Assembly (NCBI GenBank): GCA_013816615.1
Contig: JACDED010000031.1
Coordinates: forward strand, 456 to 35,262
From: Bacteroidota bacterium
GTDB lineage: Bacteria > Bacteroidota > Bacteroidia > B-17B0 > Aurantibacillaceae
Direction of reading: 5' to 3'
DNA length: 34,807 bases
Shown in pieces: positions 21,307 to 24,302 of this stretch. The notes under the pieces are model-generated. The model saw only the letters and a program-made list of their open reading frames with translations. It was not told where the DNA came from and did no database searches. A program made the position numbers and the translations under genes. Within the stretch, counting starts at the first letter, position 1. Each line of letters opens with the position of its first letter.

Positions 21307-23208
21307 ATGAATTTACTCTCAATAAACAACCTTTCTAAAGCCTACGGCGCAAAAAAGTTATTTAATAAAATAAGCTTCGGTATTAACTATGGCGAAAAAG
21401 TAGCCCTTGTTGCAAAAAACGGTTCCGGCAAAACAACACTTTTTAAAATTTTAAAAGGAATTGAAATTGCCGATGAAGGCGAAGTTGTTTTTAGGAAAGA
21501 TATTACTATCGGATTTCTTGATCAGAATTTTACGTTTGATGAATCGTTAAGCATTCAACAATTAATTGATACTGCAGATAATAAATTTGTAAAAGCAATT
21601 AAAGAATACGACGCAGTAATTAAATTAAGCGAAACATCTATGGATGCGAAAGTGGCGGATAGAATGGAAGAAGCTTTGAATTTGATGAACGAGATAGAAG
21701 CATGGGATTATGAAAAAAATATTTTAGAAATTCTTTCACGTTTAGAAATAAGAGACACAACACAAATTGCAAAAACACTTTCGGGTGGACAAAAAAAACG
21801 CGTTGCACTTGCTTTAACATTAATTAATCGTCCGAATTTAATTATTATGGATGAGCCAACTAACCACCTGGATATTGACATGATAGAGTGGTTAGAGAAT
21901 TATTTACAGGACGCATCTTTAAGTATTTTATTAGTTACCCACGATCGTTATTTTTTAGATGAGGTGTGTGATAAGATTATTGAAATTGATAATTATAAAT
22001 TATACGAATACAACGGCAACTTTGATTATTATTTGGAAAAGAAAGCCGAGCGGGAGCAAATTTCAGATGCTGAAATTGACAAAGCGCGTAATTTGTACCG
22101 TAAAGAAGTTGTTTGGGTACGTAAGATGCCAAAAGCCCGTGGCACTAAATCAAAATCACGTGTGGATGCTTTTTATGAAATAGAAAAGAAAGCAAAACAA
22201 AAACGGGTTGAGAAAAAAATTGAGCTAACAGTGAAGATGGAACGCATGGGTTCTAAAATTGTAGAGCTTCATGATATCACAAAAAACTATCCTAACAAAA
22301 CTATTTTATCAGATCCGTTTACTTACACCTTTATTCCGGGAGAAAAAATTGGAGTGGTTGGAAAGAACGGTGTTGGTAAAACAACCTTATTAAATATCAT
22401 TCAAGGTAAAGAAACTGTTGATAAAGGCAAAGTATCTTTAGGAGATACGATCGTTTTCGGTTACTACTCACAAGGCGGCATGATCATTAATACCGATAAA
22501 CGTATTATTGAGATTGTTCAGGATATTGCAGAGCATATTCCTTTAGCCAATGGCGCCAGTTTATCAGCATCGCAATTATTAACGCGTTTTAATTTTACAC
22601 CGGCTGTACAATTTAGTTACGCCCATACATTAAGTGGTGGCGAAAAAAGAAGATTGTATCTGTTAACGATCTTAATGAAAAATCCAAATTTTTTAATTCT
22701 CGATGAGCCAACGAACGATCTTGACATTGTTACATTACAAACATTGGAAGATTTTTTAGAAGAATTTAAAGGTTGCGTTTTAATTGTATCTCATGATCGA
22801 TATTTTATTGACAGGTTAGTTGATCATACATTTGTTTTAGAAGGCGATGGCGCTATTAAAGATTTTCCTGGCAACTATACAGAATATCGTGAATGGAAAG
22901 CGAATAAAAAAGATGAGAAGTTTCCGGAACTGAAAATTGAAATTCCCGTTGAACAAAAAGTTGTTGTCGAAAAAAAAGTTACTGAAGCTCCGGCAAAAAA
23001 ATTATCCTACAAAACACAACGCGAGCTGGAAATTATAGAAGCAGAAATTCCGAAACTGGAAGCGAAGAAACTGGAACTTGAAAACAAACTGGCATCCGGT
23101 ATTACAGAATATAACGAGATCCAAAAAATTAGCGATGAGCTAAAAGTAATTGCAAAAGATCTGGATGAAAAATCTGTACGTTGGCTGGAAATACAAGAAG
23201 AAGTTTAA
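21307..23208 (+). CDS. ABC-F family ATPase, Uup-like
   Basis: A 633-residue soluble protein with two ABC domains and no membrane segment. Domain 1: Walker A AKNGSGKT (residues 36-43; Ala replaces the usual first Gly), signature LSGGQKKR, Walker B with MDEPTNHLD. Domain 2: GKNGVGKT, LSGGEKRR, LDEPTNDLD. A linker rich in basic residues joins them, and a C-terminal coiled coil (about 565-633) is typical of Uup. ABC-F proteins act on the ribosome or, for Uup, also on DNA branch structures; they are not transporters. The gene appears monocistronic. Confidence 0.93.
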   Translation: MNLLSINNLSKAYGAKKLFNKISFGINYGEKVALVAKNGSGKTTLFKILKGIEIADEGEVVFRKDITIGFLDQNFTFDESLSIQQLIDTADNKFVKAIKEYDAVIKLSETSMDAKVADRMEEALNLMNEIEAWDYEKNILEILSRLEIRDTTQIAKTLSGGQKKRVALALTLINRPNLIIMDEPTNHLDIDMIEWLENYLQDASLSILLVTHDRYFLDEVCDKIIEIDNYKLYEYNGNFDYYLEKKAEREQISDAEIDKARNLYRKEVVWVRKMPKARGTKSKSRVDAFYEIEKKAKQKRVEKKIELTVKMERMGSKIVELHDITKNYPNKTILSDPFTYTFIPGEKIGVVGKNGVGKTTLLNIIQGKETVDKGKVSLGDTIVFGYYSQGGMIINTDKRIIEIVQDIAEHIPLANGASLSASQLLTRFNFTPAVQFSYAHTLSGGEKRRLYLLTILMKNPNFLILDEPTNDLDIVTLQTLEDFLEEFKGCVLIVSHDRYFIDRLVDHTFVLEGDGAIKDFPGNYTEYREWKANKKDEKFPELKIEIPVEQKVVVEKKVTEAPAKKLSYKTQRELEIIEAEIPKLEAKKLELENKLASGITEYNEIQKISDELKVIAKDLDEKSVRWLEIQEEV

Positions 23209-23214
23209 TTAATT

Positions 23215-23239
23215 GTCATTCCGAGGAACGAGGAATCTC
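23215..23239. repeat. GTCATTCC...GGAATCTC interspersed repeat, copy 2
   Basis: GTCATTCC at 23215-23222 and GGAATCTC at 23232-23239 enclose a small palindrome (ATTCC pairing with GGAAT). The outer octamers are identical to those at 1051-1077. As there, it follows closely behind a plus-strand stop codon. Confidence 0.65.
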
Positions 23240-23295
23240 TAAAAGATACTTTCTTCATTAGCATGGCAATTTATTTTATTCTCAAATCCGTTTGT

Positions 23296-23507
23296 TTTTG
23301 GGCGTGCCCCTTCGGGTCGGGCTTTCGCCACTCGCTTTTTTTATTTGCCTTTCAGGCGCACAAAAAAGAGCTCAAACAATGGCTCTATCCCTCACGCAGC
23401 TAAACAGATTTCCGGTTTGCGTTAGGGATTGCAACGTAAAGCCCGCAATGAAACGAAGTGGAATGAGGACTTGAAGTGAAAAGCCCGGCCGAAGGCAACG
23501 CCCAAAA
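23296..23507. repeat. Roughly 210-base foldable repeat element
   Basis: The ends are long imperfect inverted repeats: TTTTTGGGCGT followed by a C-rich/TTCGG/CGGGC segment (23296-23321), mirrored by GCCCGGCCGAAGGCAACGCC plus an A run (23483-23507). Inside is a second hairpin at 23387-23429: ATCCCT pairs with AGGGAT, ACGC with GCGT, and AAAC with GTTT, with one mismatch and a four-base bulge. A third small hairpin (TTGCC...GGCGCA) lies at 23345-23360. Elements with this GGGCGTGCCCC...CCCTCACGCA...AACGCCC pattern recur in Bacteroidota genomes as I recall them. It may be a repeat, a structured RNA, or a terminator for both neighbours. Confidence 0.7.
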
Positions 23508-23543
23508 AAAAGAGATTTAGAATTTTTGATTTTTTAAAAGAAA

Positions 23544-24302
23544 TTATTTTTTTTGAGAGCCTAACACCTGTTTCATAAATTCGCTTGCAAAAACAAAATC
23601 AAATAATTCCTGGTTATCTGTTTTAAGAATTTGTGATTTATTGCCTGTCCACCAGTTTTCCCCTTTATGAACAAACATAATATTATCGCCTATTTCTATC
23701 ACACTATTCATATCATGCGTAACTATAATAGTAGTAATATTAAATTCCTGGGTAATATTTCTTATCAGGTTGTCAATTACAATTGAGGTTTTTGGATCTA
23801 AACCTGAGTTAGGTTCATCGCAAAATAAATAACTTGGGTTATTAGCAATAGCACGGGCAAGCGCCGCACGTTTTTTCATACCACCGCTTAGCTCGGCAGG
23901 ATACAGTTTATTCTTACCAACCAACTGCACTTTTTCAAGGCAAAAATTAACGCGTTCCAGTTTTTCTTCTTTAGTAAGATCTGTAAACATATCTAAAGGA
24001 AACTGAACATTCTCTTCCAACGTTTGCGAATCAAATAAAGCACCACCCTGGAAAAGCATACCAATCTTTTTACGAACGTTTTGCTGCTCTATCACCGAAA
24101 GTTTTGGAAAATTTTGACCATCGTATAAGATTTCGCCACTATCAACCTGGTGCAAGCCCACCATTAATTTTAAAATAGTTGTTTTACCGCAACCGCTTTC
24201 GCCAATAATTAAATTTGTTTTGCCTTTATAAAAAGTAAACGATACATCTTTTACAACCTGCCTGTCGCCAAATGTTTTATTAATATTTTTTATTTCGATC
24301 AA
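23544..24302 (-). CDS. mlaF: MlaF-type lipid ABC transporter ATPase
   Basis: A 252-residue ATPase that powers an MCE-type phospholipid transporter between inner and outer membrane. Motifs: Walker A GESGCGKT (residues 34-41), signature LSGGMKKRAALARA, Walker B CDEPNSGLD (Asn replacing the more common Thr), and the switch His in VTHDM. It overlaps the permease gene by four bases (ATGA), so the two are translationally coupled. Downstream there is no MCE (MlaD) gene; instead the folded repeat element lies 36 bases beyond the stop. Confidence 0.93.
   Translation of the reverse strand: MIEIKNINKTFGDRQVVKDVSFTFYKGKTNLIIGESGCGKTTILKLMVGLHQVDSGEILYDGQNFPKLSVIEQQNVRKKIGMLFQGGALFDSQTLEENVQFPLDMFTDLTKEEKLERVNFCLEKVQLVGKNKLYPAELSGGMKKRAALARAIANNPSYLFCDEPNSGLDPKTSIVIDNLIRNITQEFNITTIIVTHDMNSVIEIGDNIMFVHKGENWWTGNKSQILKTDNQELFDFVFASEFMKQVLGSQKK

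Follow-up and report, generated by a model that had tools for sequence, protein, structure and literature searches.

At positions 23300-23503 of a stretch of 34,807 nucleotides (nt) from a Bacteroidota bacterium of the Aurantibacillaceae (GenBank assembly GCA_013816615.1, contig JACDED010000031.1, positions 456 to 35,262 of the forward strand; the whole stretch is called the window below) lies an intergenic element that is an inverted doublet. A left unit (23300-23397) and a right unit (23419-23503) are separated by a loop of 21 nt (23398-23418), and both belong to the superfamily of Flavo-1 (RF01705), which Rfam classes as a small RNA (sRNA); by score neither is itself a Flavo-1 member. The element is one copy of a dispersed, non-coding and modular repeat made of Flavo-1-type units, probably a foldback DNA resembling repetitive extragenic palindromes (REPs) and their doublets forming hairpins (REPINs). 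Its dispersal, the structure of its units, their polarity in the pairs found and the link to Flavo-1 are firm. Related units occur across the Bacteroidota.

An inverted doublet of two self-folding units

A plus-strand open reading frame (ORF) that ends at 23208 and a minus-strand one that ends at 23544 flank the element, and no ORF of 80 or more amino acids (aa) overlaps it. Its GC fraction of 0.525 exceeds both that of the window (0.348) and those of the adjoining 200-nt segments (0.31 and 0.27). A T-run precedes it (23295-23299) and an A-run follows it (23504-23511). Folded as a whole, the plus and minus strands each beat 200 of 200 dinucleotide-preserving shuffles (z -3.82 and -4.62). At minimum energy the plus strand forms a bulged inner stem of 14 pairs and, outside it, a long imperfect pairing. 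A first-pass annotation, made from the sequence alone, had described a GC-rich and gene-free segment with T- and A-runs at its ends, an inner 14-bp bulged stem and imperfect outer arms of about 25 nt, organized as one multibranch fold. The composition and the inner stem are borne out, as is the outer pairing, but not its length: a strict inverted-repeat search gives arms of 14 nt (93%, 23292-23305 and 23498-23511). The folding is likewise strong, but the multibranch RNA gives way to two units that fold on themselves, with covariation inside each half.

The long-range fold is a consequence of two related units lying in inverted orientation. A single 210-nt fold as the functional structure is rejected, since in 15 of 20 pairs from the same genome the outer arms differ between the partners and yet 28 of the 30 units concerned match themselves (36 of 40 over all pairs). 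This set is biased toward self-matching: the 3' end was picked for best pairing, and 72 of 93 candidate halves were kept (at least four of five pairs, at most 150 nt).

The anatomy comes from 40 loci of the same genome, which were fetched and read. The plan common to the fuller copies is a T-run, GG, a unit, a loop, the inverted unit, CC and an A-run; in 23 two-ended elements the T-runs measure 0-9 nt (none in three) and the A-runs 0-8 nt (none in two). Each unit runs GCGNN, a side hairpin (P2), GGG, a module, CCC, T and NNCGC, the terminal arms forming the helix P1 and GGG with CCC the helix P3. Four recurrent module types, distinguished by reading, are found in many combinations: type 1 (CACTCGCTTTTT...AAAAAGAGCTC), type 2 (CTTCGCT...GCAAAAGAGCTAAACCC and variants), type 3 (CAATCTTTTTG...CAAAAAGGATT) and type 4 (CAAGTCCTC...GCGGGCTT). 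The sequences of P2 and of the module tip vary among copies; the hairpin form is mostly retained.

The window copy combines a type 1 and a type 4 module, and either unit folded alone recovers P1, P2 and P3. In the left unit (type 1, plus strand; Flavo-1 sense on the minus strand), P1 pairs GCGTG (23302-23306) with CACGC (23393-23397) in the unit-alone minimum-energy fold. The P2 hairpin follows at 23307-23318 and has many sequences in other copies, foldable in most by reading; P3, seen in the alignment and the unit-alone fold, pairs GGG (23319-23321) with CCC (23389-23391). In the right unit (type 4, minus strand; Flavo-1 sense on the plus strand), P1 pairs GCGTT (23419-23423) with AACGC (23497-23501) by arm pairing and in unit-alone folds, and P2 is the hairpin GCC-GAA-GGC (23488-23496), with a GNA triloop on the Flavo-1 strand. 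Two covariance models, R2 and R1, score the left unit at 106.3 bits (23301-23397) and the right unit at 90.3 bits (23419-23502), each unit being among the sequences from which its model was built.

Conserved structure within the unit

The conserved structure is the fold within each unit, and compensatory changes lie inside units rather than between partners. The foot of P1 occurs as GCGTG/CACGC, GCGTT/AACGC, GCGCC/GGCGC, GCGTA/TACGC, GCATA/TATGC, GCGCG/CGCGC, GCGCT/AGCGC and GCGCA/TGCGC. In type 1 units of other genomes, where the 5' end was set blind to the 3' end, all five positions pair in 41 of 51 units; 2000 shuffles average 15.0 such units and never exceed 25. These 51 derive from 60 loci found by pattern, nine having been dropped for parsing or length; among the ten that fail, some have a misplaced 5' end and two (L136, L137) are broken by an insertion.

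Two alignments were scored as well. In A1 (25 units of types 3 and 4), 98.1% of the cells pair, and covariation is 0.451 against 0.208 in shuffled alignments; the four P1 pairs counted there are invariant. In A2 (type 1 units), the values are 97.3%, 0.215 and 0.073. None of 500 shuffles scores as high in either alignment, and sliding the partners destroys the score in both. A2 holds 59 of 83 type 1 units in 56 distinct rows, with some places reached twice; the 24 others were excluded by hand, mostly as long or misparsed. One internal pair of the type 1 module, the middle pair of GCC (23327-23329) with GGC (23381-23383) in the left unit, is CG in 28 of the 56 rows, GC in 27 and something else in one. 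The two sides of this pair agree in all 56 parsed pattern hits (of 60), its 3' side lying outside the search pattern. Comparing G-U with A-C pairs on A1 and A2 was tried as a test of strand and abandoned, the register being made ambiguous by a conserved bulge.

Dispersal, polarity and choice of partner

As a DNA query, the element finds at least 51 matching pieces in its own 4.68-Mb genome, where 40 of 77 candidates were scored; of 41 genomes, 18 have matches, this one among them. In the own genome the two covariance models score 62 and 48 matches, which come to at least 85 distinct units. Both counts are lower bounds, with 150 of several thousand candidates scored and type 2 outside both models, so that pairs are undercounted as well.

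Neighboring units of the own genome that lie no more than 60 nt apart have a single polarity: 20 of 20 pairs are plus-then-minus, with the 3' ends inward (tail-to-tail). Loops measure 11-29 nt in the 20 own pairs whose arms were compared above. By reading, single units are also present (L059, L192, L233, L234). Among the 60 type 1 loci of other genomes, 17 have a modeled partner within 120 nt; all 17 pairs are tail-to-tail, with loops of 14-112 nt, and one locus (L118) carries two doublets in succession. Seven loci with Flavobacterium in the record name (L101, L102, L121, L126, L138, L152, L157) have no modeled partner within 120 nt. Partners of one type appear to be avoided: homotypic elements, expected 6.1 times among the 23 two-ended ones, occur once, as two variants of type 2 (P 0.007), a rule that is only a lead because the loci were collected by similarity to the window copy.

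Relation to Flavo-1

Nothing in the window is matched by Rfam at its gathering threshold. When the filters are relaxed, the right unit matches Flavo-1 at 23416-23494 on the plus strand with 24.9 bits, against a gathering threshold of 42 (E 0.0061 on 601 nt and 0.00098 on 97 nt); it aligns to positions 1-76 of the 76 in RF01705 and has the same order of helices. The left unit, in the corresponding sense, reaches 14 bits (E 6.2). Other permissive hits fell below threshold and were taken as chance. Siblings of these units carry the connection further: units with module 3 reach the gathering threshold, and the Flavo-1 model finds 25 places in the own genome (best 69.3 bits). Among the 23 of these places that were listed, 12 coincide with places matched by the element, 11 of the 12 above threshold. 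Across the 41 genomes the model has matches in 26, above threshold in 19; in a sample of the phylum it matches 57 of 395 genomes, 46 of them above threshold, with a ceiling of 11 on the count per genome.

Flavo-1 and the window units thus share architecture and sense. They differ in that Rfam models one unit as an RNA, whereas the units of this genome stand in inverted doublets of several module types. At ten loci of the genus g22, taken for Flavobacterium, the unit by reading stands alone, with another foot. Flavo-1 was marked as probably an RNA in the study that lists it (Weinberg, 2010, Table 1; PMC2864571). According to a transcriptome of F. psychrophilum, Flavo-1 hits lie sense or antisense to transcribed regions, with many outside such regions, and the family could not be explained there because its hits ignore strand (PMC9723704). 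In the passages covered of the literature on Flavo-1/RF01705, on REPINs and their transposases, and on palindromic repeats of Bacteroidetes and Flavobacterium, nothing describes Flavo-1 as a dispersed repeat or as one member of a doublet.

The first-pass annotation had left open whether the segment was a structured RNA or a non-coding mobile repeat. It is multi-copy, and compensatory pairs were found, within units. Kinship with Flavo-1, below threshold in the window itself, and covariation uphold the structured part of the first alternative, but not a single multibranch unit of 210 nt. For the second, the dispersed repeat stands, with the copy numbers given above and a site that is empty in relatives; from comparison of sequences, it is presumably mobile.

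Empty sites and genomic placement

The two genes that flank the element are 335 nt apart here. In five relatives only 3, 19, 20, 35 and 48 nt lie between the aligned flanks (L163, L161, L164, L178 and L172, respectively). The same gap holds other material in L166 and a different repeat in L162. Neither R1 nor R2, at E up to 1, finds a unit in the gaps of the seven relatives read. The repeat in L162 (genome G021) consists of TCGTCCCTACGGGAC and variants, and the site therefore collects repeats.

Placement in the own genome is extragenic, 3 of 40 loci overlapping an ORF of at least 80 aa, and favors convergent neighbors: convergent ORFs flank 14 of 34 loci, against 3 of 44 baseline gaps (P 0.0006). 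Type 1 loci elsewhere have no strand preference relative to neighboring ORFs (++ 15, +- 14, -- 12, -+ 8; n = 49).

In Flavobacterium and relatives, type 1 units stand at matching places before the same gene, with differing module tips; the groups are L101, L138, L145 and L157; L102 and L126; and L147 and L152 (genes purA-, purT- and kynU-like by their N-termini). Such long retention would suggest a local use. Several Flavobacterium type 1 units precede purA-, purT-, hisA- or kynU-like genes, again by N-termini, and a riboswitch or 5' leader was therefore considered; it was rejected, with no preference in orientation over the 49 loci.

How the units might fold and spread

Units are more stable in the Flavo-1 sense in 109 of 123 cases, with RNA and DNA parameters alike, and the triloop c(TNC)g, which is c(GNA)g on the Flavo-1 strand, caps 50 of the 69 short P2 hairpins. 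Closed by a C-G pair, d(GNA) is reported to form a stable triloop in DNA, comparable in behavior to the GNRA loop of RNA (PMC5815330). Energies and triloops point to a folding strand, not to a polymer; because DNA parameters return the same 109 units, the fold does not single out RNA. We infer that the repeat works as foldback at the DNA level and spreads in trans. As non-autonomous DNA, its units would fold when single-stranded, and would be copied in trans by an enzyme that recognizes hairpins or be carried inside other mobile elements. The repeat would settle at gene ends, where it does least harm, and a plausible reason for doublets to remain heterotypic is the instability of long perfect palindromes.

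Besides Flavo-1, three known systems come closest. REPINs and bacterial interspersed mosaic elements (BIMEs) are inverted foldback doublets with a variable spacer, extragenic and found also as singlets (Bertels and Rainey, 2011; PMC3116915). The element agrees with them in its two inverted units, short variable spacer and many copies (one polarity in 20 of 20 pairs; loops of 11-29 nt in the set of 20 with compared arms), and in its placement. It differs in having units of about 80-130 nt with side hairpins, and a link to the REP-associated tyrosine transposase (RAYT) is not supported. No GTAG-type (GT[AG]G) foot was seen by reading, with no scan for GTAG run; the parsed units begin with a T-run, GG and GC[GA]NN. 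Atypical secondary structures are described on the flanks of tnpAREP subclass 2.6 genes, and other copies of them exist at a distance (PMC6006769). Like the element, these structures belong to Bacteroidetes, lack a GT[AG]G foot and have further genomic copies; unlike them, the units here are only weakly linked to a RAYT gene. Miniature inverted-repeat transposable elements (MITEs) share with the element a non-coding, dispersed character and inverted ends, but the own copies lack the terminal repeat and target duplication of a MITE derived from a DDE transposon. An integron attC site was also considered; the element centre does not fit the core motif, and no test was run.

Carriage by another element is seen in one relative. 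In genome G018 a common carrier of about 230-360 nt (L211-L229), with ends GATCAATCGGAA... and ...TTCCGCTTGACCC, contains one Flavo-1-type unit as cargo. Twenty of 41 Flavo-1 matches there were fetched, and 16 of these 20 copies have terminal inverted repeats (TIRs). The carrier has 9-bp target duplications: its flanks of 9 nt are identical at 7.0 positions, compared with 2.97 after shuffling. Units can therefore hitch-hike. No carrier of this type was seen, by reading, around the own-genome copies. Phage records have no match to the element, and IMG/VR has no exact match to the type 1 pattern. Among plasmids, 22 records match, 21 at 60-80% identity and one, from Moraxella, at 95-99%; the best match among the records listed covers 41% of the query. 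Type 4-like units occur on Bacteroides and Phocaeicola plasmids (L190, 4001-4078; L191, 4001-4084), and in most of the records listed the plasmid units adjoin the end of a gene annotated as a recombinase family protein.

Four other explanations can be set against a foldback DNA repeat. It is rather unlikely that the units form a true non-coding RNA family, transcribed in the Flavo-1 sense into hairpins such as binding or processing elements at mRNA ends, their repeat character being secondary. The Rfam class and the 2010 assessment as probably an RNA (PMC2864571), the covariation in A1 and A2, the stability of 109 of 123 units in that sense with RNA parameters and the matching places upstream of the same gene at several Flavobacterium loci all favor such a family, as does the coincidence of several structured 5' regions of F. 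psychrophilum with Flavo-1 (PMC9723704). However, DNA parameters give the same 109 units, each doublet joins one sense and one antisense unit, the copy numbers are those of a repeat, and placement is strand-blind both at the type 1 loci here and among the F. psychrophilum hits (PMC9723704). We also consider it unlikely, slightly more so, that the units are REPINs proper, mobilized in trans by a Y1 transposase of tnpAREP subclass 2.6 (RAYT). The own genome has six Y1 matches, five above cut-off. One of these genes (L069) encodes 188 aa with HSHLH, WQ and YIHTNP, close to but not identical with the subclass 2.6 motifs published (PMC6006769), and a type 2 unit lies about 0.5 kb downstream of it. 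Another unit adjoins the RAYT gene of G010, which makes two physical links in this genus; the type 1 match in L114 is followed at 113 nt by an ORF whose motifs read as RAYT-like, and subclass 2.6 genes are themselves flanked by copied structures (PMC6006769). Units are nevertheless no commoner at RAYT genes than at control loci, and the two do not co-occur in 25 genomes; BLAST of the flanks and the models likewise fail to support RAYT as mobilizer.

A MITE with TIRs, spread by a DDE transposase, is an improbable source of the doublets. The G018 carrier, with TIRs and 9-bp duplications in 16 of its 20 fetched copies, is what speaks for it, but that carrier is a separate element, not seen at the own copies, which show no target duplication, and the outer pairing GGGCG/CGCCC varies with unit type. 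More improbable still are bidirectional intrinsic terminators that share a repeat ancestry by chance. Convergent placement would suit them, and on the minus strand the type 1 unit has a GAGC..GCTC hairpin followed by a T-run. Conservation does not lie in this hairpin: a helix that excludes it changes both partners together (CG 28, GC 27, other 1 of 56), so the terminator stem is broken in about half of the units. Moreover, each unit has its outer T-run on the 5' side, and codirectional ORFs flank 27 of the 49 type 1 loci elsewhere.

Several results also weigh against the foldback-repeat interpretation itself. Target-site duplications are absent from 23 own elements, where the best flank match averages 0.83 against 1.13 in shuffled flanks (1.09 against 1.62 once T- and A-runs are stripped), so there is no direct trace of insertion. 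By R1 or R2, a unit lies at 1 of 40 RAYT loci, compared with 1 of 25 control loci by R1 and 3 of 25 by R2 (the R1 locus again and two with weaker hits), and RAYT and units co-occur in 8 of 18 genomes against 2 of 7 (25 genomes, P 0.66). The pairing statistics come from loci gathered by similarity to the window copy. In A1 two weaker measures are reached by shuffles, namely pairs changed on both sides by 9 of 500 and further pair types by 495 of 500. The right unit alone is no more stable than its shuffles (RNA z +1.24, 183 of 200 at least as stable; DNA z +0.06, 104 of 200), while the left unit modestly beats them (z -2.13, 7 of 200); energy alone was accordingly set aside as evidence for single units. 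Finally, the strong conservation of type 1 across the phylum, together with the matching places in Flavobacterium, suggests selection for some use.

The foldback-repeat interpretation suggests that Flavo-1 may be more aptly seen as belonging to a DNA repeat that spreads. In a tentative and more specific form, which we hold to be possible though short of even, Flavo-1 would be not an RNA gene family but a module of phylum-wide foldback DNA repeats of the Bacteroidota. These would exchange arms, keep one polarity, avoid pairing like with like, and spread by a postulated enzyme that recognizes the folded single strand favored by energies and c(GNA)g triloops. Flavo-1, whose role has been open since 2010, would gain a concrete and testable identity, and a dispersed repeat would explain why its hits ignore the direction of transcription. 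Annotation of RNA families in Bacteroidota may then count copies of a dispersed repeat as sRNA genes. With swappable modules, one polarity and heterotypic pairs, the repeat also offers a comparative system for the spread of structured repeats and their survival of palindrome instability.

Other insertions and repeats near the units

An insertion end of more than 85 nt (GTATGTTTGTATTCATTAAATTT...) directly follows ATCCCTC, in the P1 3' arm of the unit, in all five full-length matches, from two genomes. These are L276, L278 (the same as L051), L280 (L046), L277 (L137) and L279 (L136), all at contig ends; no unit stands next to a sixth match, of 23 nt. The inserted end looks like that of an insertion sequence specific for a site in these repeats. 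In L034, L042, L049, L029, L037 and L064, small foldback repeats of other kinds (GAAGTTTATCCTGAGC..GACGAAGGGC; GCAGCCTGCGCTGAGC..GACGAAGC; ACACAAGCTAACACA..) take the place of unit tips or loops, as if such repeats inserted into hairpin tips, and the L166 gap, otherwise without a unit, holds a piece related to them. Just upstream of the element, at 23214-23237, the window carries a second short dispersed motif, GTCATTCCGAGGAACGAGGAATCT, with one more copy (at most three mismatches) in L231 among the own loci scanned.
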